DNA from: Faecalibacterium sp. I4-3-84
Lineage (GTDB): Bacteria > Bacillota > Clostridia > Oscillospirales > Ruminococcaceae
Assembly (NCBI RefSeq): GCF_023347255.1
Contig: NZ_CP094466.1
Span: 2,852,001-2,916,000, forward strand
Length of the DNA stretch: 64,000 nt
Direction of reading: 5' to 3'
How positions within the stretch are numbered: position 1 is the first letter of the stretch; each line of letters starts with the position of its first letter. The notes below the pieces were generated by a model that searched no databases, was not told the origin of the DNA, and worked only from the letters and a program-made list of their open reading frames with translations. Positions 44,678 through 62,730 of the stretch are shown piece after piece. The position numbers and the translations under genes are program-made.

Positions 44678-44698
44678 TTCCTGAAAAATGGATAAAGA

Positions 44699-47392: not shown

Positions 47393-48943
47393 ATGCAGCA
47401 TGAAACTGTCATCGTGCTGGACTTTGGCGGCCAGTACAATCAGCTGATCGCGCGCCGCGTCCGCGAGAACAATGTCTACTGTGAAATCTATTCCTATAAA
47501 ACCGATCTGTCGGTTATCAAGGCAAAGAACCCCAAGGGTATCATCTTTACCGGTGGCCCCAACAGTGTTTATCTGGAGGATTCTCCCACGATCGACCCTG
47601 AGATCTTCAACTGGGGTGTGCCTGTGCTGGGCATCTGCTATGGCAGCCAGCTGATGATGCATCTGCTGGGCGGCCATGTCTGCCGCGCACCGGAGCGCGA
47701 ATATGGCAAGACTGAGGTGTTCGTGGACACGAACAGCAAGATGTTCACCGATGTGCAGCCCTCCACCATCTGCTGGATGAGCCATAACGACTACATTGAG
47801 CAGGCAGCGCCCGGCTTTAAAATCACTGCTCACACGGTCAACTGCCCGGTAGCTGCGGCAGAGAACGAGGAAAAGGGCCTGTATGCGGTCCAGTTCCACC
47901 CGGAAGTGCTGCACACTGCGGAAGGCAAGAAGATGCTGCGCAACTTCGTGTACAACGTCTGCGGCTGCACCGGCGACTGGAAGATGGACTCCTTTGTGGA
48001 AAACAACGTCAAGGCCCTGCGTGAGCGCATCGGCGATGGCAAGGTGCTGTGCGCCTTGTCCGGCGGCGTGGATTCCTCCGTTCTGGCAGCTATGCTGGCT
48101 AAGGCCATCGGCAAGCAGCTGACCTGCGTGTTCGTGGATCACGGTCTGCTGCGTAAGAACGAGAAGGAAGAGGTCTGTGCAGTCTTTGGTCCGGGCAATG
48201 CCAATGGCTTTGATATCAACTTTATCTGTGTGGATGCCCGCGCCCGCTACTTTGCAAAGCTGGCTGGTGTCACCGAGCCGGAGCGCAAGCGCAAGATCAT
48301 CGGCGAAGAGTTCATCCGTGTGTTCGAAGAGCAGGCCAAGAAGATCGGCAAGGTGGATTTCCTGGCACAGGGTACCATTTACCCGGATGTCGTTGAGAGC
48401 GGTCTGGGCGGTGAGTCCACTGTTATCAAGAGCCACCACAACGTCGGCGGTCTGCCCGACACTGTGGACTTCAAGGAGTTGGTGGAGCCGCTGCGCAACC
48501 TGTTCAAAGACGAGGTGCGTCAGGCTGGCCGTGAGCTGGGCCTGCCCGAATATCTGGTCAGCCGTCAGCCGTTCCCCGGCCCGGGTCTTGGCATCCGCAT
48601 CATCGGTGAGGTGACCCCGGAGAAGGTGGCAATCGTGCAGGATGCCGACGCGATCTGGCGTGAGGAGATCGCAAAGGCGGGTCTGGATAAGGAGATCAGC
48701 CAGTACTATGCAGCCTTGACCAACATGCACAGTGTGGGCGTCATGGGCGACGAGCGCACCTATGATTACGCTGTGGCCCTGCGTGCTGTGACCACCACCG
48801 ACTTCATGACTGCAGAGAGCTATAATATGCCTTGGGATGTTCTGGGCACTGTCACCAGCCGCATCGTCAATGAGGTCAAGCATGTGAACCGCGTGTTCTA
48901 TGATTGCACCGGTAAGCCGCCGGCAACCATTGAGCTCGAGTAA
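47393..48943 (+). CDS. guaA: GMP synthase (glutamine-hydrolysing)
   Basis: GuaA converts XMP to GMP with glutamine as the nitrogen donor. The 516 residues have the glutaminase triad region [10 protein letters not shown] (Cys) and [12 protein letters not shown] (His/Glu), the ATP pyrophosphatase P-loop [15 protein letters not shown], and the C-terminal dimerisation end [19 protein letters not shown] 47393 follows AGGGAGGAGAG. An extended -10 (TGA-TATACT at 47335-47343) lies 50 bases upstream; no purine-riboswitch core is visible. A mobile element has integrated at the last codons without changing the reading frame or stop. Confidence 0.97.
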
Positions 48944-48946
48944 TCT
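48932..48946 (+). repeat. attL, left attachment repeat
   Basis: GAGCTCGAGTAATCT, spanning the last three sense codons and stop of guaA. It matches attR (58514-58528) at 14 of 15 positions. Confidence 0.88.
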
Positions 48947-48963
48947 GCAAAACCTGAAAAGTA

Positions 48964-49022: not shown

Positions 49023-49052
49023 AGGCGATTATTCATAAAGAGAGACATGAGA

Positions 49053-49094
49053 ATGCCCTCTGAGAAACGGTAAGTTTTTCAGAGGGCATTTTTG
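49053..49094 (+). terminator. Terminator inside the left element end
   Basis: ATGCCCTCTGA (49053-49063) pairs perfectly with TCAGAGGGCAT (49079-49089), then five T. It stops guaA transcription from entering the element and replaces the terminator lost by insertion. Confidence 0.88.
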
Positions 49095-49100
49095 TGTCTT

Positions 49101-49604
49101 TTATTCTTTACGCCACTTTTTCTTCGGCTCGTACCGGCCGCAGCTGTCGGCGGTCTGTGGCCAGTTGAGCTTCCATTCCAGATACTCTTCCTTGGTGATC
49201 TCGCCCTCCCGGAGCTGCTTCTTACGGAGTTGCCACTCCTTTAAGAACTCATCCAGCAGGCGATACCGGAAGCTGACTGCCATGTGCTTTTCCGGGAGGT
49301 CCGGGTCGGCGGTGTCTGTGACCTCATAGAGCCGGGTGCCGGGGTAGTGCTCATCCAGTTCGAACAGAGTGTACATCACATCCTCTGCGGCGTACAGGGT
49401 CGGCTCATAGAGAGACCGATAGTTCACATCCAATACCTCCGCAATCTTGCGGAGCAGCTCTTCTTTAGGAGTGCGGGTGTTGCTTTCGTATTGTGCGATG
49501 CGGATGTCTGCGCTTTTCTCCTCAAACCCGATGGCAATGCCCAGTTCTTTCTGGGTCATACCTCGGAGGTTGCGGGCACGTTTGATGCGGTCACCGACTG
49601 CCAT
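49101..49604 (-). CDS. XRE-family repressor of the element
   Basis: A 167-residue regulator. Residues 4-65 are a helix-turn-helix of the Xre/Cro type (DRIKRARNLRGMTQKELGIA, NTRTPKEELLRKIAEVLDV). The rest is a helical acidic domain with no recognised peptidase or ligand motif. ATG 49604 has AGGAGG correctly placed on the minus strand. It is divergent from the excisionase/integrase genes and faces their promoter, so it is the likely master repressor. The intergenic region has two TGACTTAA copies (49617-49624 and 49715-49722), one overlapping the -35 of the rightward promoter, that could be operators. Confidence 0.82.
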   Translation of the reverse strand: MAVGDRIKRARNLRGMTQKELGIAIGFEEKSADIRIAQYESNTRTPKEELLRKIAEVLDVNYRSLYEPTLYAAEDVMYTLFELDEHYPGTRLYEVTDTADPDLPEKHMAVSFRYRLLDEFLKEWQLRKKQLREGEITKEEYLEWKLNWPQTADSCGRYEPKKKWRKE

Positions 49605-49713
49605 GCGATTGCCTCCTGACTTAAACATATTTGTTGAACCTAGTATAGCACAGAAAAATAGGAGGTGCAATAGAAAATAAACAAAAAAGTTTAAGATTTT
49701 ACCTGAAAACCTC

Positions 49714-49742
49714 TTGACTTAACGGAATGTGTTTAGTATAAT
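49714..49742 (+). promoter_or_regulatory. Rightward promoter of the element
   Basis: TTGACT (49714-49719), 17 bases, perfect TATAAT (49737-49742). The 195-base leader before the excisionase carries no gene that I can support. Confidence 0.82.
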
Positions 49743-49937
49743 GAGAGTGCAAAAAGATAAGCAAAAATGCTTAGTAAAATTGAATGACCGCCAAACTGAT
49801 CCAAACCGCCAAGACCTTCCGAAAGGAAGCGAGCGCTCCACAAGGGGACGGCACAGCACCGCAAAGGGGATATGCCTGCCGGAAGTCAGCGAGGATGAAG
49901 CGGCACCGAAACGAAACCGACAAGGAAAGGACAAAAA

Positions 49938-50123
49938 ATGGCAAACAGCATTTTTATCAAGGCAGACGAGCTGGCAAAGGAACTGGACATCTCCCAGGGT
50001 CTGGCGTACAAGATGATCGCCCAGTGGAACGAGGAACTGAGGGCCAAAGGCTACACGACCGTGGGAGGCCGGGTAAGCAGGAGGTACTATCAGGAGAAGA
50101 TCTACGGGGCAGGGGAGGAGTGA
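49938..50123 (+). CDS. xis: Excisionase-like helix-turn-helix protein
   Basis: A 61-residue basic protein (MANSIFIKADELAKELDISQ, then AYKMIAQWNEELRAKGYTTV) of the short MerR/excisionase type that precedes tyrosine integrases in Firmicutes elements. It would bend DNA at the att site and steer recombination towards excision. AAGGAAAGG lies before the ATG. It ends four bases before the integrase ATG. Function is inferred from size, fold and position. Confidence 0.78.
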   Translation: MANSIFIKADELAKELDISQGLAYKMIAQWNEELRAKGYTTVGGRVSRRYYQEKIYGAGEE

Positions 50124-50127
50124 TAGG

Positions 50128-51193
50128 ATGCCAGCCTACAAGGACAACAGGCAGGGCACATGGTACGCTTCCTAACTGGCAAGGTGTGAAGCAGAAGAAG
50201 CTGAAACGGGGATTTGCCACCAAGAAGGATGCTCTGGCGTGGGAGCGGGAGTTCCTTCTTCAACAGGCGGCAGACCTGACCATGACATTTGAAGCCTTTG
50301 TGGAAATTTATATCACGGACAAAAAGAAGCGACTCCGGGAAAACACATGGTTTACCAAGGAGCATATCATCCGAACGAAAATCTTACCGTATTTCAAAGA
50401 AAAGCGGCTCAGCGAGATAAAGCCACGGGATGTGATTGCATGGCAGAACGAGATGCTGAACTACCGGGACAAAAACGGCAAGGCCTACTCGCCGACCTAC
50501 CTCAAGACGCTGCATGGACAACTCAGTGCCATTCTGAATCACGCCGTCCGGTTCTACGGGCTGAAATCAAACGCAGCAGCCACAGCCGGGTGCATGGGGT
50601 CGGAAAAGCACAAGGAGATGCTCTTTTGGACAAAGGAGGAGTACCTCAAGTTCGCGGAAGCGATGATGGACAAGCCGCAGTCCTATTACGCTTTTGAGGT
50701 CCTCTACTGGTGTGGCATCCGGGAGGGCGAGCTGCTGGCTCTGACTCCAGCAGACTTCGATTTGGACAAGGGGCTGCTCTCCATCACCAAATCCTATCAA
50801 AGGCTGAAAGGCCGGGATGTGATCACCGACCCGAAAACATCCAAGAGCGTCCGGGTCATCCAGATGCCGCAGTTTCTGACGGACGAGATCAGGGACTATC
50901 TGAAATCCCTCTACAAAGTCCAGCCGGATCAGCGGATCTTTGAGGTGACCAAGAGCTACCTGCACCACGAGATGGACAGGGGAGCCAAGGAAGCCGGGGT
51001 GAAGCGCATCCGAATCCACGACCTGCGGCACTCCCATGTATCGCTGCTGATCGAGATGGGCTTCTCGGCGCTGGCAATCGCAGACCGGGTGGGGCATGAG
51101 AGCGTGGACATCACCTATAAGTACGCCCACCTCTTCCCCTCAAAGCAGCAGGAGATGGCGCAGAAGTTGGATATGGAGCGAAAGGAGGGATGA
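50128..51193 (+). pseudogene. int: Tyrosine integrase, frameshifted near its N-terminus
   Basis: The gene starts at ATG 50128 (MPAYKDNRQGTWYAS) and hits TAA at 50173-50175. The rest of the protein continues in the +1 frame from AAC 50174 (NWQGVKQKKLKRGFATKKDA) to the stop at 51193. Relatives read about four more residues (an aromatic pair and Thr) at the break, which suggests an 11-base deletion. The remaining 335 residues from GTG 50186 keep the core-binding domain and all catalytic residues: Arg in GIREGELLAL, His/Arg in HDLRHSH, His in GHESVD and Tyr in YKYAHLF. The integrase may be inactive, made by frameshift or re-initiation, or this may be a sequencing error. Confidence 0.8.
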
Positions 51194-51195
51194 AG

Positions 51196-51519
51196 ATGGA
51201 ACGAGTACTCGACCAGCAAGGCCGCTGGCGGAACAAGGTGGTAGCCTTCCGAATGTCCCCGGAAGAGGACGAGGTTCTGGAAGCCAAAGTAAAGCTCTCC
51301 GGGCTGACCAAACAGGAGTATATCATCCGCCGCTTGACCGATCGGGAGATCACCGTGGTAGGCAACCCAAGGGTCTACAAAGCCCTGCGAGACCAGATGA
51401 AGCTGATCTATCAGGAATTGCAGCGGCTGGCCGTGGATGAAGAAGTTCCGCCGGACTTGCTGGAGACCCTGCAAATGGTGGCTCTGACGTTGAACGGACT
51501 TAAGGAGGAATGCGAATGA
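51196..51519 (+). CDS. MobC-like relaxosome accessory protein
   Basis: A 107-residue protein with a ribbon-helix-helix-like segment (NKVVAFRMSPEEDEVLEAKV, then LSGLTKQEYIIRRLTDREI). It resembles the plasmid mobilization proteins grouped as MobC, which help open oriT for the relaxase. ATG 51196 is six bases after AAAGGAGGG, making it a better start than ATG 51190. It is separated from the relaxase by the RepA-like gene, whose start it overlaps. Assignment is by fold and context. Confidence 0.62.
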   Translation: MERVLDQQGRWRNKVVAFRMSPEEDEVLEAKVKLSGLTKQEYIIRRLTDREITVVGNPRVYKALRDQMKLIYQELQRLAVDEEVPPDLLETLQMVALTLNGLKEECE

Positions 51520-52640
51520 CGGACAATAGAAAAACGACCGTACCGGGTGCATCTGTTGGCGCAGATGCGGTACAGTCGTCTCACAAAACTAGCACCAATA
51601 TTATAACAAATTCGGACAAGCAAATCAATCTGCAAGCCGCGAAAAAATCAAACAATTTCGGGCTGAACACGATATCAATGACCGAACTGTATGACACGGT
51701 CTATCCACCAAGGAAACCAATCGTGAATGACCTGCTTTACAGCGGAACGTACCTCTTCGTAGGTGCGCCAAAGGTGGGCAAGTCCTTCTTCATGGGGCAG
51801 CTTGCCTACCATGTGGCGATGGGGCTTCCGCTGTGGGAGTACGAGGTGCATCAGGGAACAGTCCTCTATCTGGCCTTGGAAGACGATTACGCCCGGTTGC
51901 AGCGGCGGCTCTCCCGGATGTTCGGGGTGGAGGAGACCAGCAATCTCTACTTCGCAACACAGGCCAAGTCCGTGAGCGAAGGACTTGACCAGCAGCTGGA
52001 AGGCTTCATCCGGGAGCACCCGGATGTGCGGCTCATCATTATCGACACCCTGCAGAAGGTGCGGGAGATCGGCGGTGAACGATATAGCTACGCCAGCGAC
52101 TACGAGATCGTGACCAAACTGAAAACTTTCAGCGACAGGTACGGCATCTGCCTGCTGGTGGTTCATCACACCCGGAAGATGGAAGCCGAGGACAGCTTCG
52201 ATATGATTTCCGGCACCAACGGTCTGTTGGGTGCAGCGGATGGCGCGTTCATCATGCAGAAGAAGCGGCGTACAGATAATACCGCTCTGCTGGACATCGT
52301 GGGGCGTGACCAGCCGGATCAGGAGCTGACATTGGAGTTTGACCGGGAACGCTGCGTGTGGGAGTTCCAAGGAGCCGAAACGGAACTTTGGAAGCTGCCG
52401 CCCGACCCGCTTCTGGAAGCGGTGGCAAAGATGCTCAGCCCGGAACAGCCAGAGTGGAGCGGTACGCCCACGGAGCTGCTGGAACGTCTGTCTGGTGTGA
52501 GCATACAGGCAAACATCTTGACCCGGAAGCTGAACGTGAGTGCCGACAGGCTCTACAACGATTATGGAATTCGGTACGAAAGCAAGCGCACCCATGAGGG
52601 CAGAGTGGTCAAATTAACGCTGGAAAATTCTGAGGCGTGA
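51516..52640 (+). CDS. RepA-like RecA-fold AAA ATPase
   Basis: A 374-residue ATPase of the hexameric RepA/DnaB-like helicase group (AAA_25). A polar N-terminus of about 50 residues precedes Walker A GAPKVGKS (83-90). Later come YLALEDDYARLQRRL, Walker B RLIIIDTLQKV, and the motif LLVVHHTRK, typical of this group. A C-terminal winged-helix-like part ends the protein. ATG 51516 overlaps the MobC-like stop, with AAGGAGG upstream. Such proteins unwind plasmid origins; in mobilizable elements they may allow brief replication after excision. Repeats directly downstream support this role. Confidence 0.75.
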   Translation: MTDNRKTTVPGASVGADAVQSSHKTSTNIITNSDKQINLQAAKKSNNFGLNTISMTELYDTVYPPRKPIVNDLLYSGTYLFVGAPKVGKSFFMGQLAYHVAMGLPLWEYEVHQGTVLYLALEDDYARLQRRLSRMFGVEETSNLYFATQAKSVSEGLDQQLEGFIREHPDVRLIIIDTLQKVREIGGERYSYASDYEIVTKLKTFSDRYGICLLVVHHTRKMEAEDSFDMISGTNGLLGAADGAFIMQKKRRTDNTALLDIVGRDQPDQELTLEFDRERCVWEFQGAETELWKLPPDPLLEAVAKMLSPEQPEWSGTPTELLERLSGVSIQANILTRKLNVSADRLYNDYGIRYESKRTHEGRVVKLTLENSEA

Positions 52641-52694
52641 CGATTCGTGACGGTTGTGACGGTATTTTTGCTACTATGTAAAATACCGTCACAA
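52636..52694 (+). repeat. Iteron-like repeats and 15-bp inverted repeat (candidate origin)
   Basis: Three GTGACG copies lie at about 10-base steps (52637, 52647, 52656). The last runs into TTGTGACGGTATTTT (52654-52668), which is perfectly inverted as AAAATACCGTCACAA (52680-52694) around an 11-base spacer. The 3' arm starts no T tract, so a terminator is unlikely. Position just after a RepA-like gene suggests a replication or regulator-binding site. Confidence 0.6.
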
Positions 52695-52722
52695 TCGACA
52701 CAACCGACACGGGATGGTGATA

Positions 52723-52959
52723 ATGATGAAAAATGTGCAGATTTCGCAGGAACTTTTCGTCGCCTTGCTGCATTATCATTTGAGCGGCGAAAATGAGTAC
52801 GAAGAGGTCATTGAGCAGGGTCTGGAGCAAAAATTGGATGCGATGTTGCGGCATGAGCTGTATGCCCAGTACAAGACAGCACCCACCGAGGAACAGCGGG
52901 AGCAGGCTCGGCAGGAGTATCTGGACAGACGAGGCGTGCCAGAAAGCTTCCGCTGGTGA
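52723..52959 (+). CDS. Small conserved element protein, function unknown
   Basis: A 78-residue acidic helical protein (MMKNVQISQELFVALLHYHL, then EQGLEQKLDAMLRHELYAQY and a charged tail ending GVPESFRW). I recognise it as a type of small protein that often accompanies mobilization genes in gut Firmicutes, sometimes named complexin-like, but no function is known. The exact start is unsure: ATG 52714, 52723 and 52726 are in frame and none has a strong ribosome site. It may help in replication control or mobilization. Confidence 0.6.
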   Translation: MMKNVQISQELFVALLHYHLSGENEYEEVIEQGLEQKLDAMLRHELYAQYKTAPTEEQREQARQEYLDRRGVPESFRW

Positions 52960-52978
52960 GCCCCTCTATTGGCAAAGT

Positions 52979-53200
52979 ACAGGAGCGTGTCACGCTCCTG
53001 TGAATGCAATCATGCAGGAAGGTGGTGTTGGACCGGGTAGCGGTGAGGTGCAGCGAAACCTCGTCCGCAGACGGAAGCCCCCGGCAGGGCGCAAAGGCAT
53101 CTTTTGATGGACGGAACGTCTGTCAAAAGTGCTTTTGCGTTACTTTCGACGAAAGTAACAAAGCCTTTGCCGTGTCCGGCACCAGTTACTTCCACAGAGA
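52979..53200 (+). other. Candidate oriT region upstream of the relaxase
   Basis: The gap before mobV is rich in inverted repeats. ACAGGAGCGTG (52979-52989) is perfectly inverted at 52991-53001. CAAAAG-TG-CTTTTG lies at 53124-53137. GTTACTTTC-GAC-GAAAGTAAC lies at 53139-53159. GCAAAGGC near 53090 is complementary to GCCTTTGC near 53163. MobV relaxases nick at inverted repeats directly upstream of their own gene, so this is the expected place. The nick site itself cannot be assigned. Confidence 0.6.
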
Positions 53201-53212
53201 AAGGACGTGCGA

Positions 53213-54481
53213 TTGAAAAGAACCATTTCCGCAATGCGGGGTCCCGGCTCCCTCAACCATAACCGGAGAAGTTTCACCGCTGAAAACGTAGACCCGAAGC
53301 GCAGCAGTCTGAATGTCGTGTACCGTGATGAGTCGATTCAGAAGGTGTACCACGAACTGTTTGACGAGGCAGTGAAGCGTTACAATGCCAAGCAGAAGCG
53401 CAAGGACCGCTGTATCACCGACTACTATGAGCACCTGCGGACAGGCAAGCAGGAAAAGCTTTTCCATGAGCTGATCGTCCAGATCGGCAACAAAGATGAT
53501 ATGGGTGTCCTGACCGAGAATGGCGCACTGGCGAAGGAACTGCTGGACGAGTATATGCAGGGCTTCCAAGAGCGGAACCCGACACTGCGGGTGTTCGGGG
53601 CTTTCCTCCACATGGACGAAGCTACGCCCCATCTGCACATCGACTTCGTGCCGTATGTGTCCGGCTGGAAGGGCAAAGGACTGGACACCAAGGTGTCCCT
53701 GAAGCAGGCGCTGAAAGCCTTGGGCTTTGCAGGCGGTTCTAAACGGGAATCCGAGCTGAACCAGTGGATCAACGCCGAGAAAGAGCAGCTTGCCGCCGTG
53801 ATGGAGCGGCACGGCATCGAGTGGGAACAGAAATGCATCCACGAAGAGCACTTGTCTGTGCTGGACTTCAAAAAGCAGGAGCGTAGTAAAGAGGTAGCGG
53901 CTCTGGAAGCTGCCAAGCAGGAGTGCCAGACCGACCTGACCGAGATGCAGGAACAGCTGGAAACAGCGCAGACAGCCGTAGAAGCCGCTGAACAGCGGGT
54001 ACAGAAAGCAGAGCTGACCTACCAGAAGCAGAGCCAGAAGCTGAACAAGCTGGCTCCCATCATGGAGGGGCTGGAAAACCTGTCAGCGCAGTACTCCCAG
54101 CGGCCAGAAGAATGGGTGCCGGAAGCAGCCATGTTTGAGACCGCCAAGAGTTACCGAGAGAAAAAGGCCATGCCGCTGATCCAGAAGTTGGTGAAGGTAC
54201 TCTTTGCCCTCCATCGGAAGTACTGGGAGGTCAAGGATGAGCGGGATAAGTATCTGTACTTCTATCAGGACGAGAAGAAAGCTACCCATCATCTAAGCCA
54301 GCGGCTGAAAGAGGTGGAGGCTGAAAACTCTCAGCTCTATGCGATGAAACGTGATTTCAGGCGAGTATGGAACTATTTCGGTGCCGAAAAGATGCAGCAG
54401 GTCATTGGGCTTATGAGGGGGCAGGAACAGACCGCGGATAGAAGCCAGAAGAAGAACAGGCAGAACAGCGTAGAACTGTAA
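53213..54481 (+). CDS. mobV: MobV-family relaxase (plasmid recombination/mobilization protein)
   Basis: A 422-residue relaxase that would nick oriT and lead the strand into a recipient. The N-terminus MKRTISAMRGPGSLNHNRRS is the family's motif I. The metal/catalytic motif III HMDEATPHLHIDF is at residues 133-145. Residues 225-300 form a long coiled coil (LEAAKQECQTDLTEMQEQLE and onward). TTG 53213 is the start, eight bases after AAAGG; GTG 53207 is too close to the ribosome site. A hairpin at 54491 ends the unit. Confidence 0.9.
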   Translation: MKRTISAMRGPGSLNHNRRSFTAENVDPKRSSLNVVYRDESIQKVYHELFDEAVKRYNAKQKRKDRCITDYYEHLRTGKQEKLFHELIVQIGNKDDMGVLTENGALAKELLDEYMQGFQERNPTLRVFGAFLHMDEATPHLHIDFVPYVSGWKGKGLDTKVSLKQALKALGFAGGSKRESELNQWINAEKEQLAAVMERHGIEWEQKCIHEEHLSVLDFKKQERSKEVAALEAAKQECQTDLTEMQEQLETAQTAVEAAEQRVQKAELTYQKQSQKLNKLAPIMEGLENLSAQYSQRPEEWVPEAAMFETAKSYREKKAMPLIQKLVKVLFALHRKYWEVKDERDKYLYFYQDEKKATHHLSQRLKEVEAENSQLYAMKRDFRRVWNYFGAEKMQQVIGLMRGQEQTADRSQKKNRQNSVEL

Positions 54482-54490
54482 GCATAGCGG

Positions 54491-54520
54491 CCCTTACTAC
54501 CAGCACATTGATAGTAAGGG
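54491..54520 (+). terminator. Hairpin after mobV
   Basis: CCCTTACTA (54491-54499) pairs perfectly with TAGTAAGGG (54512-54520). The following sequence is AT-rich rather than a pure T tract. The base composition becomes clearly AT-richer from here to 58380. Confidence 0.65.
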
Positions 54521-54625
54521 CTGCTAAATATTAAAATATTAACAGAAAGGAACAAAGAAATGCGAAATAGAAAGACAAAAACTGTAAAGAATTTATATAA
54601 AATCTCACAATATTATGAGATAATC

Positions 54626-54654
54626 TTGATTTTTGCAATTGTACTCGATATACT
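54626..54654 (+). promoter_or_regulatory. Promoter of the defence operon
   Basis: TTGATT (54626-54631), 17 bases, TATACT (54649-54654), about 35 bases before the XRE gene. No other promoter or terminator is obvious up to 58373. Confidence 0.75.
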
Positions 54655-54688
54655 AATAATTAAGAATGGGATGAAAACGAGGGGTATA

Positions 54689-54901
54689 ATGCAGATTTCA
54701 TATGATAAGCTATGGAAATTGCTAATAGACAAGAAAATGAGTAAGACAGAATTAAAAGATTTAGCAGGCATTAGCTTTAATATTATTGCGAAACTGGGAA
54801 AATGCGAAGCGGTGTCAATGGAGAGTATGTACAAGATTTGTACCGCATTGGATTGTAATATAGGTGATATTATGGAATTTTTGAAACCGGGGGTGGTTTA
54901 A
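54689..54901 (+). CDS. Small XRE regulator, controller-protein-like
   Basis: A 70-residue single-domain helix-turn-helix protein (MQISYDKLWKLLIDKKMSKT, GISFNIIAKLGKCEAVSMES, then MYKICTALDCNIGDIMEFL). Size, fold and position first in an operon with a methyltransferase and nuclease are those of a C (controller) protein, which delays nuclease expression when the system enters a new host. However, this HTH type is also widespread in mobile elements. ATG 54689 follows GAGGGG. Its stop overlaps the methyltransferase ATG (TAATG). Confidence 0.75.
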   Translation: MQISYDKLWKLLIDKKMSKTELKDLAGISFNIIAKLGKCEAVSMESMYKICTALDCNIGDIMEFLKPGVV

Positions 54902-55809
54902 TGAATGGGAAGATTCCTCATATTGTGCAATATCAAGGTTCAAAAAGAGTATTGGCACCTCAAATACTGCAATATATGCCGGAGCGATTTAACAGATTGA
55001 TAGAACCATTTTCTGGAATGGCGGCAATTAGCATTGCGACAGCATACGAAAATAGGACGAATAGCTTTTTGGTAAATGATCTTAATAAGCCATTGGTAGA
55101 CATGCTTCAAGAGGCCATTGAAAAGCCTGAGCAGTTGATCATGAATTACTCAAAAGTGTGGGAAGAACAATTTTCCTACGGAGAAAATCATATCCAACAT
55201 TTTTATGATGTACGAGAGCGTTTCAATAATGGGGAGAAAACATCCGCCAATATGCTATATTTGCTGGCTCGCTGTGTTAAAGGAGCGGTCAGATATGGGA
55301 AAAATGGAAATTTCAATCAGTCCCCTGATAAGCGGCGACATGGAACAAACCCTAAGACTTTGGCACAGAATGTCTACAAGGTATCGCGACTTTTAAAAGG
55401 AAAGACGGAGTTTGTATCAAAAGACTACCATGAAATTTTAGAGATGGCCCAACCTGGCGATTTGGTTTATATGGATCCGCCGTATCAAGGCGTTACAAAT
55501 GTTCGGGATAATCGTTATTTTTCAGGTGTTCCCTTTGATGAGTTCGCAGAATCTTTGAAAATCCTTAATAAAAAAGGTGTTGACTATCTTATCAGCTATG
55601 ATGGTGAATGTGGAGGAAAAGAATATGGAGAAGACCTGCCGGAAGATTTGAAATGTAAAAAAGTTATGCTGAATGCGGGGCTTTCAAGTCAAGCACTTTT
55701 GCTGGGAAAGAAACAAACAACATTTGAAGCTTTGTATATAAGTGAAGCATTGATTCAAGAAATTGATAAAGAACCTGAACAATTATCCTTTATGGAGGCA
55801 ATCGGATGA
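54901..55809 (+). CDS. D12-class DNA adenine-N6 methyltransferase
   Basis: A 302-residue type II methyltransferase of the Dam/DpnM alpha class. Motif I-like IVQYQGSKRVLAPQILQYMP and PFSGMAAISIA lie in the N-terminus, and the catalytic DPPY is at residues 192-195 (VYMDPPYQGVT). The target-recognition region lies between, at about 85-170. It would methylate adenine in the site cut by the HNH nuclease encoded next, which overlaps it by four bases (ATGA). The recognition sequence cannot be told from sequence. The AT-rich codon use differs from host genes, a sign of recent transfer. Confidence 0.9.
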   Translation: MNGKIPHIVQYQGSKRVLAPQILQYMPERFNRLIEPFSGMAAISIATAYENRTNSFLVNDLNKPLVDMLQEAIEKPEQLIMNYSKVWEEQFSYGENHIQHFYDVRERFNNGEKTSANMLYLLARCVKGAVRYGKNGNFNQSPDKRRHGTNPKTLAQNVYKVSRLLKGKTEFVSKDYHEILEMAQPGDLVYMDPPYQGVTNVRDNRYFSGVPFDEFAESLKILNKKGVDYLISYDGECGGKEYGEDLPEDLKCKKVMLNAGLSSQALLLGKKQTTFEALYISEALIQEIDKEPEQLSFMEAIG

Positions 55810-56516
55810 CAGAATACCCCAAAGAATTCTTGGAGCTATTGGAGAGTGTGACAGCCAAGAGACCCAGAACGGTAATTCAGCATATATTAAAAAATGGATA
55901 TATTACGTCTGAGGAATTAAAGGATGTTTATGGGTATAATCATCCGCCGCGTGCAGTAAGAGATGTTCGCGAGTATGGAATACCGCTTGTGACATATAGA
56001 GTCCAAGGGTCGGATGGCAGAAAGATTGCAGCATATAAATTTGGCGACCCTCACGAAGTACAAAATGCATTATCGAAAACAGCGGGACGAACGGTTTTAT
56101 CAAAAGCATTAAAACAGGCCCTTATTGAAAAATATGGAGCTAGATGCTTTATCTATCTTGAAGAGATGGATGAGTCAAAACTGCAAGTAGATCACAGAGT
56201 ACCGTATGAGATTGGCGGAGAACATGATGAAAAAGACATAGATTATTTTATGTTGCTTAGCCCATCGGCAAACCGTGCAAAATCGTGGACATGTGAGCAT
56301 TGTGAAAACTGGGAAACGAAAAATCCGAGTTTTTGTATGAGGTGCTATTGGGCACATCCTGAAGATTATGACCATGTTGCTGGAAAACCGGAAAAGTTGG
56401 TGTCAATTGTGTTCACGGGCGATGAAGTTGATGACTATAATAAGTTAATTGCATTATCTGGCGAAGATACTGCGCAGGCGGTAATAAAAAGGATTTTGCA
56501 TGAGCACCTGAAGTGA
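55806..56516 (+). CDS. HNH restriction endonuclease
   Basis: A 236-residue nuclease. Residues 20-80 look like a winged helix (RTVIQHILKNGYITSEELKD). The HNH core is LQVDHRVPYEIGGEHD (Asp129-His130), with Asn156 in SPSANRAKSW. Two CxxC pairs (CEHC at 163-166, CMRC at 177-180) form a zinc site within or just after the core. The tail of about 40 residues is acidic and unrecognised. Its overlap with an adenine methyltransferase and the C-protein-like gene upstream make it the cutting enzyme of a type II system. The specificity is unknown. Confidence 0.82.
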   Translation: MTEYPKEFLELLESVTAKRPRTVIQHILKNGYITSEELKDVYGYNHPPRAVRDVREYGIPLVTYRVQGSDGRKIAAYKFGDPHEVQNALSKTAGRTVLSKALKQALIEKYGARCFIYLEEMDESKLQVDHRVPYEIGGEHDEKDIDYFMLLSPSANRAKSWTCEHCENWETKNPSFCMRCYWAHPEDYDHVAGKPEKLVSIVFTGDEVDDYNKLIALSGEDTAQAVIKRILHEHLK

Positions 56517-56538
56517 ATGAAGGAAAGGAAAAACAGAA

Positions 56539-57507
56539 ATGAGAAAGGCGTTGGTTGTAGGCATTGATCAATATACGGGTTGTCCATTACATGGATGCTG
56601 CAATGATGCAGATGCCATTGCAAATGTCCTCAGTAAAAATGGTAATGGTTCTCCTAATTTTGACGTAAGGATAGAAAAGAATGTTTCTAGCAAAGCAGAA
56701 CTTCGTGGGATGATTGATGAATGCTTTGCGGGCGATTCTGATATTTCGCTTTTTTATTATTCAGGGCACGGATACATAGATTCTGTTGGTGGCTATTTGG
56801 TGACACCTGATGCTACACAGCACGATTATGGAGTCTCCTTGCAAGATGTTTTGACAATTGCCAATAATTCAAAAGCAAAGGAGAAAATCATTATTTTGGA
56901 TAGTTGCTATTCTGGCTTTATGGGAAACATAAACACATCGGGGCAACAAACAGCAATAATTAATGAGGGTGTAACAATATTAACAGCTAGTCGGTCGAAT
57001 GAAACATCTGTGGAATCTCATGGACACGGAGTTTTTACCTCGCTGTTGATTGAAGCACTAATGGGAAGTGCTGCTGATGTGACGGGTCATGTTACGCCAG
57101 GCGGAGTGTATGCGTATATTGATAAAGCGTTAGGACCTTGGGAACAACGCCCGGTTTTTAAGACAAATGTTACGAGGTTTACATCACTGCGCGATGTTAC
57201 ACCTCAGGTGGATTTGTCTGTTATTAGGAAACTGTGCGATTATTTCTCTAGCGAAAATGAAAACCTGAACATTGATCCGTCTTATGAACCTACGAATTCT
57301 CCAACCGTCACACATGAGGTTATAGAGCCTTATGCAGTTGAAGAGCATACCAAAATCTTTTCGGATTTACAGAAGCTGGAGGGAGTAGGCTTAGTTGTAC
57401 CAGTAGGCGAAGAACATATGTATTATGCTGCAATGAAGTCAAAAGCATGTGCCTTAACAGCTATCGGAAAACAATATTGGAGATTGGTCAAAGCTGGACG
57501 CATTTGA
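56539..57507 (+). CDS. Caspase-like protease (peptidase C14), defence effector
   Basis: A 322-residue protein. The p20-like caspase domain starts at once: MRKALVVGIDQYTGCPLHGC and CNDADAIANVL, the catalytic His77 in FYYSGHGY and the catalytic Cys123 in ILDSCYSGFMG. After residue 220 comes a linker and a C-terminal domain of about 60 residues (SDLQKLEGVGLVVPVGEEHM, then YYAAMKSKACALTAIGKQYW) that looks like a small winged helix. No signal peptide or membrane span is seen, so it acts in the cytoplasm. The neighbours are two TIR proteins. In type IV Thoeris, a TIR-made cyclic ADP-ribose isomer switches on a caspase-like protease that kills the infected cell; this gene fits that effector. Confidence 0.88.
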   Translation: MRKALVVGIDQYTGCPLHGCCNDADAIANVLSKNGNGSPNFDVRIEKNVSSKAELRGMIDECFAGDSDISLFYYSGHGYIDSVGGYLVTPDATQHDYGVSLQDVLTIANNSKAKEKIIILDSCYSGFMGNINTSGQQTAIINEGVTILTASRSNETSVESHGHGVFTSLLIEALMGSAADVTGHVTPGGVYAYIDKALGPWEQRPVFKTNVTRFTSLRDVTPQVDLSVIRKLCDYFSSENENLNIDPSYEPTNSPTVTHEVIEPYAVEEHTKIFSDLQKLEGVGLVVPVGEEHMYYAAMKSKACALTAIGKQYWRLVKAGRI

Positions 57508-57528
57508 ACAAAAGAAAGGGTGTGAACT

Positions 57529-57918
57529 ATGGCAAAAAAGAGAGCATTTATTAGTTTTGATTATGATAACGATGTGGATTTGAAGGCTTTGCTGGTAGGG
57601 CAAGCTAGAAATCCAGATTCACCTTTTGAAATTGTGGATATGTCCATAAAAGAAACGATTGAAAGCAACTGGAAGGAGAACGCGAGACGAAGAATAAAGG
57701 GCTGTGATGTCGTAATTGTAATATGCGGAAGATACACAAATTTTGCTACAGGTGTTAGCGCAGAAGTAAAAATTGCTCAAGAGGAAAATGTTCCATATTT
57801 TTTACTGTGGGGCAGATCGAGTGGTACATGTGTTAAACCGGTAGCAGCAAGATACACGGATAAAATTTATACTTGGACGTGGGCAAACTTGAAAAAGCTA
57901 ATTGGGGGTGCAAGATAG
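57529..57918 (+). CDS. ThsB-like TIR protein (DUF1863/MTH538 type)
   Basis: A 129-residue single-domain protein of the TIR-like family found in Thoeris ThsB: MAKKRAFISFDYDNDVDLKA at the N-terminus, VDMSIKETIESNWKENARRR, and the strand CDVVIVICGRYT. Glu79 in GVSAEVKIAQ sits where the NADase Glu is in this family. Such proteins sense phage and convert NAD into a cyclic ADP-ribose signal. It lies 21 bases after the caspase gene and overlaps the second TIR gene, so all three are co-expressed. Enzyme activity is inferred. Confidence 0.82.
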   Translation: MAKKRAFISFDYDNDVDLKALLVGQARNPDSPFEIVDMSIKETIESNWKENARRRIKGCDVVIVICGRYTNFATGVSAEVKIAQEENVPYFLLWGRSSGTCVKPVAARYTDKIYTWTWANLKKLIGGAR

Positions 57919-58373
57919 TGAAAATTTTTATTTCACATAAGCAAGAAGACTCGGATACAGCAAATAGACTTGCAAGTGAATTGAGATCATTAGGGATACC
58001 CTATTATCTCGATATTCTTGATTCTACGGTAACGACAAGTGGCAAGGCATTAACGGAACATATAAAAAGCAACTTAAATGATTGCACAGATATTATTGTT
58101 ATAATGTCGGAGGCAACACGGTTCTCGCAATGGGTTCCGTTTGAAGTGGGAATGTCAGCACAAAATGATATGCCAACGGCAACGTTTCTTAAGAGCAACG
58201 TTTCGTTACCTGAATTTCTGGAGTATTGGCCTAGATTAAAATATCCAAGCGATATTGCTAAATACGTTAGTACCAGAAGAGAAGTCCAGGATGAATATGT
58301 GAGATATGATATGGCGCAAACGACAAAGTCGCAGACAGAACGTTTCTATGATGTGTTGAAGCGAAGATTGTAA
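57918..58373 (+). CDS. Second TIR-domain protein
   Basis: A 151-residue TIR protein of a different branch: MKIFISHKQEDSDTANRLAS, GIPYYLDILDSTVTTSGKAL, then CTDIIVIMSEATRFSQWVPFEVGMS, in which Trp72 and Glu76 match the W-x-x-x-E NADase pattern. A C-terminal helix of about 50 residues (YPSDIAKYVSTRREVQDEYV) follows the fold. GTG 57918 overlaps the previous TAG by one base and follows GGGGGTG. It may be a second sensor for other phages, or a partner of the ThsB-like protein. Last gene of the defence operon. Confidence 0.82.
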   Translation: MKIFISHKQEDSDTANRLASELRSLGIPYYLDILDSTVTTSGKALTEHIKSNLNDCTDIIVIMSEATRFSQWVPFEVGMSAQNDMPTATFLKSNVSLPEFLEYWPRLKYPSDIAKYVSTRREVQDEYVRYDMAQTTKSQTERFYDVLKRRL

Positions 58374-58391
58374 TTCAAAGACAAAATTTGC

Positions 58392-58410
58392 GTGATACTA
58401 TCCTGATACT
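58392..58410 (+). repeat. Right arm-type integrase binding sites (candidate)
   Basis: GTGATACTATC (58392-58402) and CTGATACT (58403-58410), direct copies of the motif next to attL. Confidence 0.6.
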
Positions 58411-58513
58411 AAAAAATCAGCAAGCCACATCTAGCACAGCAATCTCATGAAAAAGTGAACATTCAAGAATAGCGTTACTAAACAAATTTGTTTAGCGAGA
58501 ATCCAAACTTACC

Positions 58514-58528
58514 GAGCTCGAATAATCT
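58514..58528 (+). repeat. attR, right attachment repeat
   Basis: GAGCTCGAATAATCT; one base differs from attL (G to A in the Glu codon third position). The bases beyond it represent the original sequence downstream of guaA. Confidence 0.88.
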
Positions 58529-58561
58529 TTCTTGATAAAACTGGATCAGGTAAACTTGTAA

Positions 58562-58597
58562 GCCCCCTGCCGGTGATGAACTGGCAGGGGGCTTTTT
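58562..58597 (+). terminator. Displaced guaA terminator
   Basis: GCCCCCTGCC (58562-58571) pairs perfectly with GGCAGGGGGC (58583-58592), then five T. It is 34 bases past attR, with no gene on the plus strand between, so it is most likely the former guaA terminator. Confidence 0.85.
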
Positions 58598-58642
58598 ATG
58601 TGTGTACGGGTAGTTTAACAGAATACTTGATGTTTGCCGCGA

Positions 58643-60598
58643 TTACGACGCATCCAGCAATTCGTCCGGGTCCTCGATGGCTTCTTCGATGGTCTCTTCC
58701 TCAGGAGTGGGTTCATCGACATCGGACGGAGCGAACAGGTCACAGATGAAGTCGCGCAGGAGGACGAGGCTGTTGTCAAGGTCGGCATCCTCGCTCAGCA
58801 GCTGCTGGATCATATCCGGCTTATCGGTGATCAGGTCGTCCACGCCGATGCTCAGCAGTTCGCTGGCATCCTCTTCGCGGTTGACGGTCCATGCGGAGAT
58901 CGTCTTGCTGCGCTTATGGATCTGCTGCACCATACCGGAGGTGATAAAGGTGGACTGTACGCTGAAGAAATCTGCGGCAGGCAGATCGTAATAACTGCCC
59001 ACGCCCAGTGCAAGGATATAGCCGGTCCGGATCTCCGGTGCCAGCTCCTTGACCTTGCAGAGGGTCTCATAACTCTGCGAGGTGATGGTGCAGTCCTGCG
59101 CAAAGCCTTTTTCGCGGATGATGCGGATGGTTTCCGCTTCCAGCTCCGGGGTGGCGGCATTGGGCTTGATCTCAATGTTCAGCTGGATCTTACCTTTGCA
59201 CAGGTCCAGCACTTCTTCCAGTGTGGGAACTTTGGCACCAGTGTACTTCTGGCCGAACCAGCGCCCGGCATCCAGCTTGCGAACCTCGTTACAGGTCAGG
59301 TCGTAGATGTTCTCGTTGCGGCCGGTGCAGCGGCGCAGGCTGGTATCGTGGGTCACCATGACCACGCCGTCCCTGGTCATCTGCACATCCAGCTCGGCCC
59401 ACTCGCAGCCCTGATCGATGGCCAGCTGGAAAGCGGGCAGGGTGTTTTCCGGTGCGGCAGCGGAGTAGCCGCGGTGCGCGGTGACTACCGGCGCAACGCC
59501 GCCCAGCATGGAGAGCAGCTCGTCGTCTCTGGGTAGGGCAAGGTAACAGAATGCCAGCGCAAAGGTGAGCAGAGTAGCACCCGCAACCGATGCACCCAGA
59601 AGCAGCCTGCCGGTGGAACGGTGATGCTTTCCGCTCTGGACCGGCTCCGGCTCAGAGGGGAGAGATTCCCGCAGGCGGCAGTACAGCATGGCGAGGATCG
59701 TGCACTGCGCCATGGTGATGGCGCAGTCGATCAGGAACTGGAAGAAAGGCATCTCAATGGCCAGCGCCGCGCGGGACAGTGCAAACATAGCCTGTGTGCT
59801 CTGCAGCCCGACCGCGATGATGATGCCGTACAGCGGCACGGCAACCGCTGCCGTCAGCAGCAGGGAACGTAGGACGACCGAGAGGTTCCAGCGCAGCAGC
59901 AAAAGAAAAGCGCGGAAGACGCGCCTGCGGATGCAGCAAAAGCTTTCCTTTACCGACTGCCACAGGCTTTTGCGCTCCAGCACGAACAGCGGCAGCACCA
60001 GCACCCAGCTGACACAGAGGAACAGCAGGGCGGCACCGGCAGCCAGATAGAGCAGGTAATACCGGCTGTTTGCCCGGATGACACCCATGATGTATTCCGG
60101 CACGGCAAGCTGCGTGATATAGTTATAGGCGAGGAAGAAGTTGGTGAACGGGATCAGCACGGCACTGTAGACCAGAACGAGCCAGTTCTGCGGCAGGAAT
60201 GCGTGGCGGATATCTGCAAGAGAGGTGCGCAGCAGGGCGGGCAGGCGGATCGTTTCGCCCTTGCGGGCAAGATCCAGCCCATGCAGCAGGACGGAAAACT
60301 CATACAGCGCCCAGAACGCGGTCAGGATGGCAATGAGCGTGATGCACAGGATGATCGCGGGGGAGGAAAAGATATCAGAAGCGTTGTTGTTGTTCAGGTA
60401 GTGCATGGGTGCGAACCGCAGCGTGAGCGACCAGAGCTGCTGCATCAGGGGGACGAACAGCAGGTTCGTTGCAGCCTTATACAGGACGATGACCGCGAGC
60501 AGGGGGATCTCGGCGCGGCGGATGATAGCCCGGGCGGAGTGCTTCATGGAGTGGTAGGTTTCGTTGGAGGCGCGGAGTGAAGTGAGCAGATCTTTCAA
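58643..60598 (-). CDS. Membrane-anchored glycerophosphodiester phosphodiesterase
   Basis: A 651-residue protein. The first 350 residues form a multi-pass membrane domain (about eight spans) of the type fused to GDPD in Firmicutes. The catalytic domain follows from about residue 370: VTAHRGYSAAAPENTLPAF, ELDVQMTRDGVVMVTHD, then NIEIKP. It would split glycerophosphodiesters, or perhaps lipoteichoic-acid-type polymers, at the outer face. An acidic tail ends it. The start appears to be TTG 60598 with AGGAAGG about ten bases upstream. A four-codon ATG frame overlaps that TTG (60606-60595). The first in-frame ATG is 17 codons in. Confidence 0.9.
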   Translation of the reverse strand: MKDLLTSLRASNETYHSMKHSARAIIRRAEIPLLAVIVLYKAATNLLFVPLMQQLWSLTLRFAPMHYLNNNNASDIFSSPAIILCITLIAILTAFWALYEFSVLLHGLDLARKGETIRLPALLRTSLADIRHAFLPQNWLVLVYSAVLIPFTNFFLAYNYITQLAVPEYIMGVIRANSRYYLLYLAAGAALLFLCVSWVLVLPLFVLERKSLWQSVKESFCCIRRRVFRAFLLLLRWNLSVVLRSLLLTAAVAVPLYGIIIAVGLQSTQAMFALSRAALAIEMPFFQFLIDCAITMAQCTILAMLYCRLRESLPSEPEPVQSGKHHRSTGRLLLGASVAGATLLTFALAFCYLALPRDDELLSMLGGVAPVVTAHRGYSAAAPENTLPAFQLAIDQGCEWAELDVQMTRDGVVMVTHDTSLRRCTGRNENIYDLTCNEVRKLDAGRWFGQKYTGAKVPTLEEVLDLCKGKIQLNIEIKPNAATPELEAETIRIIREKGFAQDCTITSQSYETLCKVKELAPEIRTGYILALGVGSYYDLPAADFFSVQSTFITSGMVQQIHKRSKTISAWTVNREEDASELLSIGVDDLITDKPDMIQQLLSEDADLDNSLVLLRDFICDLFAPSDVDEPTPEEETIEEAIEDPDELLDAS

Positions 60599-60890
60599 TT
60601 TGACATGGCCTTCCTTTTATATTCTGCAAAATGACCCGTCCCGAAGCTTCCCGGCGGGCTGTTCTGCGAAAAAAATTTACATATTAAATATAGTGTAACA
60701 TAACTTCCTATAAAATAAAATGCAGCAGGAGCAGACAGAATCCACAAAATTGAAAGAGAATTTTTGACAGCCGAATGTGCGGCGCAAAATGCCCGCAAAA
60801 AGGCGGGAAAGCAGAGAAACGATGAATCGTTAAAAAATTGTAGAACTTTGCGCGACAGATGTTGATTCGCATGGACTTTTATAGAATCTC
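60599..60890. other. Divergent intergenic region
   Basis: An AT-rich gap between the minus-strand phosphodiesterase gene and the decarboxylase operon. I see no gene. It must carry the minus-strand promoter; TTACACT-type sequence near 60698 on the minus strand is a weak candidate for its -10. Confidence 0.45.
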
Positions 60891-60919
60891 TTGCATTTTT
60901 ATGGAAAATTCAGTATAAT
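60891..60919 (+). promoter_or_regulatory. Promoter of the decarboxylase operon
   Basis: TTGCAT (60891-60896), 17 bases, perfect TATAAT (60914-60919), 45 bases before the first gene. Confidence 0.82.
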
Positions 60920-60964
60920 AAAACTAATTTTGAAAGCTCACACAGACAACCAGGAGGTCTTACC

Positions 60965-62284
60965 ATGGCTTCAAAGATCAATAAGGGAGAAATCCTCGCC
61001 AAGTTTTTTGATGACGGGGAATACACTGCACTGTTTGCTGACGGTGCAGTGAGCGCTGCCTGCGGCTATGCGGCAGGTCAGCAGGCTTACGCTGTTTACC
61101 AGAACGGCGAAGCTGTTACCGTAAAGGATGTTGAAAAGAACATCAAGGTTCTGGAGATGGCAGCACAGACTGGCTGCCCGGTCGTCACCTTCTATAACTC
61201 CGTTGGCGCAAAGCTGGCTGAGGGTCTGGACGTGCTGACCGCCAGCGCAAAGCTGAATGCGCAGATCGCAAAGGTTTCCGGCGTGATCCCGCAGGTGGCT
61301 GTTGTTCTGGGTGTCTGCGGCGGCACCAGCGCACTGAGCGCTGCCAATGCAGATGTCTGCATCATGGCTGAGGGCGCAGAGCTGTTCTTCACCGCTCCGT
61401 TCACCTCTGCTGCCAAGGGCGACAAGGTGACCGATGCCGGCACCGCAGCCGCCGCTGCAAAGGCTGGCGTGGCCGCCATTGTGGCACCCACTGCTGAGGA
61501 AGCTGCCGAGAAAGCTGCTCACATCGTGGGCCTGCTGCCGGCCAACAACCTGACCGGCCCTGCGATCTTTGAGTTCGAGCAGCCCACTGCTGCTCTGGCT
61601 GCCGGTGCAGAGCCTGCAAAGGCTGCTGCTGCCGTGGTCGATAAGGACAGCGCTGTGGAGCTGTATGCAGGCTTTGGCAAGTCTGTTTACACTGCATTTG
61701 CCACCGTGGGCGGCAACGCCGTGGGCGTTGTGGCCACCGGCAAGACCCTGTGCCACAACTGCGTGGCCAAGGCTTCCCGCTTTGTGCGTCTGTGCGATGC
61801 CTTCAGCGTGCCGGTGATCACCATTGTGGATACCGAGGGCTTTGTGCCCAGCGCGACCGACGACATTGCAGGCGGCATCCGTGAGGCTGCCCGTCTGGCT
61901 GCTACCTATGCCGACGCTACCACCGCAAAGGTGGCTGTGCTGGCTGGCAAGGCCGTCGGCCCTGTTTACACCGCTCTGGCTGCTGCCGATCTGCGCATTG
62001 CCGTGGCTGGCTGCACCGTCAGCGCACTGGAACCCAGCGCAGCGGTCAGCGTCCTGTACAAGGAAGAGATCGATGCTTCCGACAACATCATTGCAGCCAC
62101 CAACGCAAAGGCTGCTGCTTACACCGCCGAGGTGTGCAGCGCAGCAAATGCAGTTGCCTGCGGCGCTGCTGACCTGACCTGCGATGCAGCCAATGTGCGT
62201 GCAAGCGTTGTTGCCGCACTGGAACTGCTGAGCACCAAGCGTGCTGCCCGCCTGCCCAAGAAGCACGGCAACATGGCTCTGTAA
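60965..62284 (+). CDS. Divergent biotin-dependent carboxyltransferase (MmdA/PccB-like)
   Basis: A 439-residue protein with two crotonase-fold halves of the acyl-CoA carboxyltransferase family (VVLGVCGGTSALSAANADVC in the first; VVATGKTLCHNCVAKASRFV and VPVITIVDTEGFVPS in the second). It is clearly shorter than classic MmdA (about 510-520) and unusually rich in Ala. It is followed by a biotin carrier and an oxaloacetate-decarboxylase-type alpha subunit. Together they suggest a transcarboxylase or Na+-pumping decarboxylase module; the acyl-CoA substrate is not evident. CAGGAGG lies before the ATG. Confidence 0.75.
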   Translation: MASKINKGEILAKFFDDGEYTALFADGAVSAACGYAAGQQAYAVYQNGEAVTVKDVEKNIKVLEMAAQTGCPVVTFYNSVGAKLAEGLDVLTASAKLNAQIAKVSGVIPQVAVVLGVCGGTSALSAANADVCIMAEGAELFFTAPFTSAAKGDKVTDAGTAAAAAKAGVAAIVAPTAEEAAEKAAHIVGLLPANNLTGPAIFEFEQPTAALAAGAEPAKAAAAVVDKDSAVELYAGFGKSVYTAFATVGGNAVGVVATGKTLCHNCVAKASRFVRLCDAFSVPVITIVDTEGFVPSATDDIAGGIREAARLAATYADATTAKVAVLAGKAVGPVYTALAAADLRIAVAGCTVSALEPSAAVSVLYKEEIDASDNIIAATNAKAAAYTAEVCSAANAVACGAADLTCDAANVRASVVAALELLSTKRAARLPKKHGNMAL

Positions 62285-62333
62285 TCGTCTGTATAAATCT
62301 TTTTGATACGATTTTGATTTGGAGGATCCTTCC

Positions 62334-62714
62334 ATGAAGTACTACAATATTACCGTCAATGGCGTTGCTTACAGCGTCTCCGTGGAGGAGACTGCCGCTG
62401 GTGCTGCTCCGGTTGCTGCTGCAGCTCCTGCCGCACCCGCTGCTCCTAAGGCTGCTCCGGCTCCCGCTGCTGCTCCCAAGGCTGCTGCAGGCGCTGCTGG
62501 TGCCGTTGCCGTCAAGGCTCCCATGCCCGGCAACATTCTGGATGTCAAGGTCAAGGCCGGTGCATCCGTGAAGGCTGGCGACGTGCTGGTGATCCTGGAG
62601 GCCATGAAGATGGAGAACGAGATCGTTGCTCCGCAGGATGGCACTGTGGCTTCCATCAACGTCAACAAGGGCGACACCGTCAACTCCGGTGACGTTCTGG
62701 TTTCCATGAACTAA
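62334..62714 (+). CDS. Biotin carboxyl carrier protein
   Basis: A 126-residue biotin carrier. The N-terminus MKYYNITVNGVAYSVSVEET leads into an Ala/Pro linker of about 35 residues that allows the arm to swing. The biotinyl domain follows with EAMKMENEI (Lys is the biotinylated residue) and PMPGNILDVKVKAGASVKAG. It resembles the gamma/biotin subunits of sodium-pump decarboxylases rather than the acetyl-CoA carboxylase AccB. ATG 62334 follows GGAGGA; an in-frame start five codons earlier is ignored. It lies between its two carboxyltransferase partners. Confidence 0.92.
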   Translation: MKYYNITVNGVAYSVSVEETAAGAAPVAAAAPAAPAAPKAAPAPAAAPKAAAGAAGAVAVKAPMPGNILDVKVKAGASVKAGDVLVILEAMKMENEIVAPQDGTVASINVNKGDTVNSGDVLVSMN

Positions 62715-62730
62715 GGGAGAGGTGACAATC

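Follow-up and report, generated by a model that had tools for sequence, protein, structure and literature searches.

Type IV Thoeris, reportedly described by Rousset et al. in 2025, is said to consist of a TIR protein and a caspase-like protease. A glutamate is the catalytic residue of TIR proteins. According to PMC12847820, the operon of type IV Thoeris pairs the gene of a caspase-like protease with a TIR gene of the NADase type. The same arrangement is found in the window (the whole stretch of 64,000 nucleotides that was analysed), where a caspase-like protease with a His/Cys dyad shares an operon with TIR proteins carrying a catalytic-type Glu (57529-57918 and 57918-58373); in comparison with that description, a second TIR family has been added. 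Two TIR proteins per effector are also known from the type I Thoeris system of Staphylococcus (PMC12578639). There, one of ThsB1 and ThsB2 binds a capsid protein and recruits the other, and one makes the signal. The Staphylococcus effector is a ThsA with a STALD domain that cleaves NAD+, whereas the effector in the window is a caspase, and the second TIR protein of the window (TIRb) need not correspond to either ThsB; the gene arrangement is compatible with a phage-induced complex of that kind. A STALD search gave no match in the window's genome, and none in any control genome either.

The caspase also resembles the EACC1-associated caspases of NCBIfam (NF047832), which it matches over residues 3-198 with 105.9 bits, under the curated cut-off of 140 bits. 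Systems with EACC1-associated caspases presumably hold partners other than the TIR proteins found beside the caspase here. No statement on a type IV operon with two TIRs was found in the excerpts of open-licence literature, which included PMC12847820, PMC13373217, PMC7272460, PMC12578639, and PMC13232231. Overall, the locus is ordinary as a TIR-caspase system and informative as a rule-bound two-TIR variant in which the exchange of the core TIR is visible. It may represent a type IV Thoeris-like variant on a mobilizable element, with an exchangeable core TIR and a co-operating second TIR, a tentative reading given slightly less than an even chance.

The operon and its proteins

The three genes (Table 1) lie on the + strand and take up 1.84 kb together (window 56539-58373), so that the three linked genes announced there by an earlier note on this DNA are indeed present; they are called an operon on the basis of gene spacing and strand. 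Chance ORFs were ruled out by family matches, folds, and invariant residues. The most likely start of TIRb is GTG 57918, which gives 151 aa and has one base in common with the TAG stop of TIRa. With this start, the numbering Trp72/Glu76 given earlier for the second TIR is right. In the five close relatives inspected (L012, L013, L014, L018, and L021), TIRb begins with ATG within a short overlap with TIRa at the same place. A promoter scan of 54300-58700 returned 14 sites against 12.9 expected.

Table 1. Features of the operon and of its surroundings, by position in the window
Feature	Position	Strand	Evidence and remarks
guaA	47369-48943		GMP synthase by NCBIfam
Proposed attL, guaA 3' end	48932..48946	+	14/15 direct repeat with 58514-58528; G028 homology ends 48944
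Tyrosine integrase of carrier element	49784..51193	+	PF00589 1.3e-17; PF14659 4.1e-20; start uncertain
NikA-like mobilization protein	51190..51519	+	PF21983 9.1e-15
AAA_25 ATPase of carrier element	51510..52640	+	PF13481 1.7e-30; presumably RepA-like
Mob_Pre/MobV-like relaxase of carrier element	53207..54481	+	PF01076 1.6e-16; NCBIfam MobV under its cut-off
Small HTH regulator	54560..54901	+	PF13443 4.7e-17
Dam-family adenine methyltransferase, probable partner of restriction gene	54901..55809	+	TIGR00571 138.5 bits (cut-off 114.85); PF02086 1.3e-34
Type II restriction endonuclease-like	55806..56516	+	PADLOC PDLC03566 REase_II 3e-51; 22 bp upstream of caspase gene
Caspase-like protease, putative effector	56539..57507	+	322 aa; His77/Cys123; PF00656 E 1.7e-18 over residues 1-178
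TIRa, ThsB-type, core TIR of operon	57529..57918	+	129 aa; Glu79; PF08937 ThsB_TIR E 1.3e-7
TIRb, TIR_2-type second TIR, C-terminal helices	57918..58373	+	Glu76/Trp72; PF13676 TIR_2 E 1e-10
Proposed attR	58514..58528	+	Repeat partner of 48932-48946; G028 homology resumes 58475

TIRa and TIRb are distinct families of one fold. The highest score of TIRb among Pfam models is that for TIR_2. The term unrelated, which had been used for the second TIR, is nevertheless too strong, because the Thoeris ThsB cut-off of PF08937 (21.2 bits) is passed by TIRb (26.4 bits; E 9.6e-6) as well as by TIRa (32.4 bits). The search against Thoeris and caspase profiles that had been proposed gave PF00656 for the caspase and PF08937 for both TIR proteins; the best ThsB models of PADLOC (2023) gave just 22.7 bits for TIRa and 41.9 bits for TIRb. 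Searches of the window's genome with PF08937 and PF13676 found no TIR besides these two, and the genome has one such caspase.

The caspase residues His77 and Cys123 were invariant in all 55 aligned caspases, in agreement with the intact dyad reported before, and the part of about 100 aa past the caspase domain is conserved as well. For TIRa, whose ThsB-like character with Glu79 had also been recognised correctly, the glutamate was found in 93/93 relatives, a set limited to matches >100 bits and leaving out the canonical ThsB proteins (TIRc); F10, D37, S39, W48, G75, and W116 were invariant too. For TIRb, Glu76 and Trp72 were invariant in 24/24 relatives >100 bits, together with F4, S6, D11, W104, and P105. 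Such a conserved Glu is no proof of activity, because Staphylococcus ThsB1 has the putative residues and mutating them left immunity undisrupted (PMC12578639).

AlphaFold2 gave a caspase fold for the protease (pLDDT 92.9), with MALT1 as the top PDB match (E 1.7e-13). The model of TIRb (pLDDT 88.1) has a TIR-like fold with EcThsB as the top match (E 5.6e-5), at a TM-score of just 0.49; TIRs of SPARTA systems and further TIRs came next, interspersed with deoxyribosyltransferases. Sequence searches of solved structures found no close relative: the best match of the caspase was metacaspase-9 (E 2.4e-6), TIRa was without a credible match, and TIRb reached E 0.033.

Distribution of the caspase and linkage of TIRb

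Relatives of the caspase were found in 109 plasmid records, all at <60% identity and 45 of them with 80% of the query covered, in 13 viral contigs, and in more than 500 genome stretches (at least 532 relatives). Phage records gave two caspase matches and two weak TIRb matches. The caspase is uncommon. It was present in 8/398 genomes drawn from the phylum, that of the window among them. A TIR-like ORF lies next to it in all eight, with a score of only 47-54 bits in three. Within the order, a full-length match occurred in this genome only out of 394, four others giving 18.8-45.6 bits, and within the genus the caspase occurred in 1/31 genomes, with two others weak.

The genome loci compared were the best 80 of at least 532 relatives, and thus near relatives of the window's caspase. 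A script counted TIR-like neighbours within 2.5 kb of these caspases: 50 loci had a single one, 24 had two, 2 had three, and 4 had none; since several contigs end inside the searched span, these counts may be low. Two or more were therefore counted in 26/80, or 24-26 after doubtful cases. These include L036, where the second count is a 302-aa protein on the opposite strand, and L015, where it is a 97-aa ORF; in L055 the script took an 8xMP membrane protein for a third TIR, in L035 the only neighbour counted has 1121 aa and matches weakly, and both L056 and L058, with a script count of zero, have a TIR_2 protein. The earlier note had singled out two TIR proteins from different branches serving one protease as the standout of the locus. 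As stated, this was not borne out: the 26/80 loci led to rejection of the view that two TIRs per caspase are unusual, and PMC7272460 gives multiple ThsB proteins per ThsA for over half of the Thoeris systems. In its reading of a type IV Thoeris-like system with dual sensors, the TIR-caspase operon and the co-inheritance of the TIRs with the protease have stood, and the two TIRs as a peculiarity have not.

Co-inheritance had been named beforehand as a point on which the reading could fail, and it did not fail. When TIRb served as the query, which gives no bias towards caspases, this caspase lay nearby in 15/17 loci, the window included (12/13 plasmid contexts, 1/2 viral contigs, and 2/2 genomes of the 398-genome draw); the linkage rests on these TIRb-started loci only, caspase-started loci not being counted. 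The plasmid records of TIRb numbered 17, and the contexts of 13 were inspected (12 fetched and L008), with H31-H33 and H36 left out. In the 12 plasmid loci the caspase lies within about 2.5 kb; L113 and L120 have a broken caspase frame. Matches to TIRb >100 bits occurred in 2/398 genomes of the draw, the window's and G534, both beside the caspase and both with TIRa as well; the draw also gave two weaker TIR matches, at 40-42 bits, with no caspase in the 3.2-3.3 kb around them. That TIRb shares the island by coincidence is held unlikely, since 15/17 of the TIRb-started loci have this caspase. No caspase was seen near the TIRb relatives of L123, a TIR array, and L125, where the left flank has 472 bases.

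TIRb was found in 25 caspase loci overall, a set that mixes caspase-started finds (10 of the best 80 of at least 532) with TIRb-started ones, and in 24 of them it was accompanied by another TIR, either TIRa or TIRc. The exception is L036, whose contig begins 118 bases before TIRb and whose available sequence shows no further TIR on the same strand. TIRa and TIRc are often the sole TIR beside the caspase; in none of the 50 single-TIR loci among the best 80 of at least 532 is that TIR TIRb. The partner of TIRb is TIRa in most loci and TIRc in L019, L020, and L055, and in L114 it is a protein 37% identical to the TIRc of L019. Three TIRc proteins scanned (L016, L019, and L055) matched PF08937 at 3e-15 to 5e-17. 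TIRb lies 2.3-2.4 kb from the caspase in L151 and L152, as does TIRc in L020, past an opposite-strand ORF. The caspase is on the strand opposite to the TIRs in L100 and L114, and TIRb is on the opposite strand in L152. L001 (a copy of the window's stretch) and L124 (a copy of the L100 contig) were left out of the counts, and L081 out of alignment A6. A Fisher test (p 1e-4) was not used as proof, because TIRb itself raises the TIR number.

Four gene orders exist among the 17 loci with all three genes, namely C-a-b, a-b-C, a-C-b, and b-a-C, where C is the caspase; the order differs between lineages, so the linkage has been kept through rearrangement. Exchange of the core TIR is seen as canonical ThsB taking the place of TIRa in some close relatives. 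Caspases 71-76% identical to that of the window (best 80 of at least 532) come with three TIR sets: a+b in L012, L013, L014, and L018; b+c in L019 and L020; and c alone in L016 and L017, whose contigs end 0.2-0.7 kb further on. In the same identity group, L015 has TIRc and the 97-aa TIR-like ORF. The set b+c is also found in L055 and L114. In L055 the caspase is full-length, and a decayed relic of TIRa (L055:5960-6370; 70% identical over 91 residues, with stops inside) separates it from TIRb; TIRc lies further downstream, and the gene of the 8xMP membrane protein sits between TIRb and TIRc. From its genes, this locus looks like a core TIR under replacement while TIRb stays.

Across 17 loci, distances between caspases and between TIRb proteins were correlated with r 0.61 (Mantel p 2e-4), compared with r 0.40 for TIRa and TIRb and r 0.31 for the caspase and TIRa over 85 loci; the Mantel values are partly common descent, and two loci entered with caspase pieces. 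On the caspase tree, which is a quick one with unsure long rows (e.g., L121) and with plasmid rows picked for holding TIRb, TIRb requires 9 changes (shuffles about 18.6), 6 of them forced by well supported branches. TIRb has thus been repeatedly gained or lost, which marks it as dispensable.

Other observations were made in these loci. The 302-aa protein of L036 (L036:3094-4002) has a weak TIR-like start and is grouped by the script network with the 8xMP protein of L055. On an Enterococcus faecalis plasmid, the TIR-caspase locus L006 has a second TIR (L006:4778-5347) that matches a PADLOC ThsB model at 1.2e-54, and a Thoeris ThsB family is thus found beside a caspase. In the alphaproteobacterial loci L115, L117, and L118, the caspase is immediately followed by a small unknown gene and by one for a metallophosphoesterase. 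S8 peptidase genes occur near TIRb in the TIR-caspase loci L151, on a Sphingomonas plasmid, and L152, on an Agrobacterium Ti plasmid, the latter with several CHAT-domain genes too.

Possible roles of the two TIR proteins

Judged from their families, the TIR proteins would quite probably turn NAD+ into a cyclic ADP-ribose signal on infection, and this would be N7-cADPR if the described type IV system is followed. It is likewise probable that the signal would turn on the caspase-like protease, perhaps via its conserved C-terminal part, and that the protease would then degrade cell proteins and halt phage growth. The comparison of loci shows the class of TIRa alone with the caspase elsewhere and its replacement by TIRc, and TIRa would accordingly act as the exchangeable core TIR. 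TIRb, with its invariant TIR active-site residues, may be a co-operating second TIR that depends on a core TIR for its work; its likeliest role would be that of a co-sensor or a partner cyclase, joined to the core TIR by a phage component, and the chance of this falls just below half. A precedent for two co-operating TIRs is given by Staphylococcus ThsB1 and ThsB2, which are brought together by a phage component (PMC12578639). Co-operation is suggested here by the constant presence of TIRb with a core TIR.

The main alternative holds that TIRa and TIRb are two independent sensors, which would detect different triggers, make the same signal, and share the caspase, widening the range of phages seen. 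This is possible, if on the doubtful side. A printed proposal for multiple ThsB copies has each sensing a different phage component (PMC7272460). The catalytic Glu is kept without exception in both TIR proteins, and intact glutamates are explained by either co-operation or independent sensing. The exchange of core TIRs under caspases 71-76% identical points to a small molecule, probably a common product, as what the caspase reads, and not to one protein partner. TIRb was never the sole TIR in the 24 caspase loci free of a contig-end cut, nor in any of the single-TIR loci counted above, which argues against a fully independent sensor. We would place co-operation somewhat above independent sensing. 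There are counterpoints. TIRb stays where TIRc has replaced TIRa, which argues against TIRa and TIRb as a close-fitting pair and would be expected just as much if TIRb were a second, independent sensor with a common signal; the invariant Glu76 could also mean that TIRb makes signal by itself.

It is improbable that TIRb is a modulator, which would bind or degrade the signal or keep TIRa inactive until infection. Its occurrence with a core TIR in 24/25 loci and its accessory place on the caspase tree would suit such a role, as would the overlapping TIRa and TIRb genes, which suggest joint expression; against it, all 24 TIRb relatives keep F4, W72, and E76 and none shows decay, and the conserved glutamates in both TIRs argue against a dead modulator. 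Least probable is that TIRb is a separate NAD+-depleting defence gene sharing only the island: stand-alone TIR NADases such as SpbK exist (PMC12847820) and the sequence of L123 and L125 shows relatives of TIRb and no caspase, but the caspase lies nearby in 15/17 TIRb-started loci, the window included, and the linkage is kept in four gene orders.

Under the co-operation of a core TIR with TIRb, a two-key alarm can be imagined, in which N7-cADPR, or a second signal, would be produced only once the phage has engaged both TIRs, whereupon the caspase would kill the cell, the core being swapped while caspase and co-TIR stay fixed. This version is rather unlikely. If it were true, bacteria would update the alarm by swapping the core TIR. 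The reason for several TIRs in many Thoeris systems is still being worked out, and similar caspases with the TIR sets a+b, c alone, and b+c form a natural swap experiment. This set allows a direct test of what determines which phage is seen, be it the signal, the sensor, or a complex between TIRs, and also of whether canonical ThsB makes a different cADPR isomer when the effector is a caspase. As TIRb is kept with another TIR in related operons, the question of why one executioner needs two sensors becomes testable.

The carrier element

The operon is cargo of a mobilizable element of about 9.6 kb at guaA, where it lies beside a restriction-modification pair. The same-species genome G028, without such a caspase, has about 1.9 kb of other DNA between the match edges at 48944 and 58475. 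The att sites are a proposal: the repeat has 14/15 bases only and was found by looking beside the known breakpoint. The G+C content falls to 0.33-0.43 over 54500-58499, and no tRNA was found in 44000-64000. Related integrase, NikA, AAA, and HTH genes are present near the caspase operon of L013.

The HTH, methyltransferase, and REase-like genes (54560-56516) lie directly upstream of the caspase. The fetched caspase loci held no relative of the restriction gene and one weak relative of the methyltransferase (L052), and because of this near-absence the pairing with the caspase looks local. The 3' end of guaA with adjoining bases (48929-48996) recurs about 64 kb from guaA in two genomes of the same genus, G029 and G009. 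This is as expected of a larger element at the same site, and guaA may be an integration hotspot.
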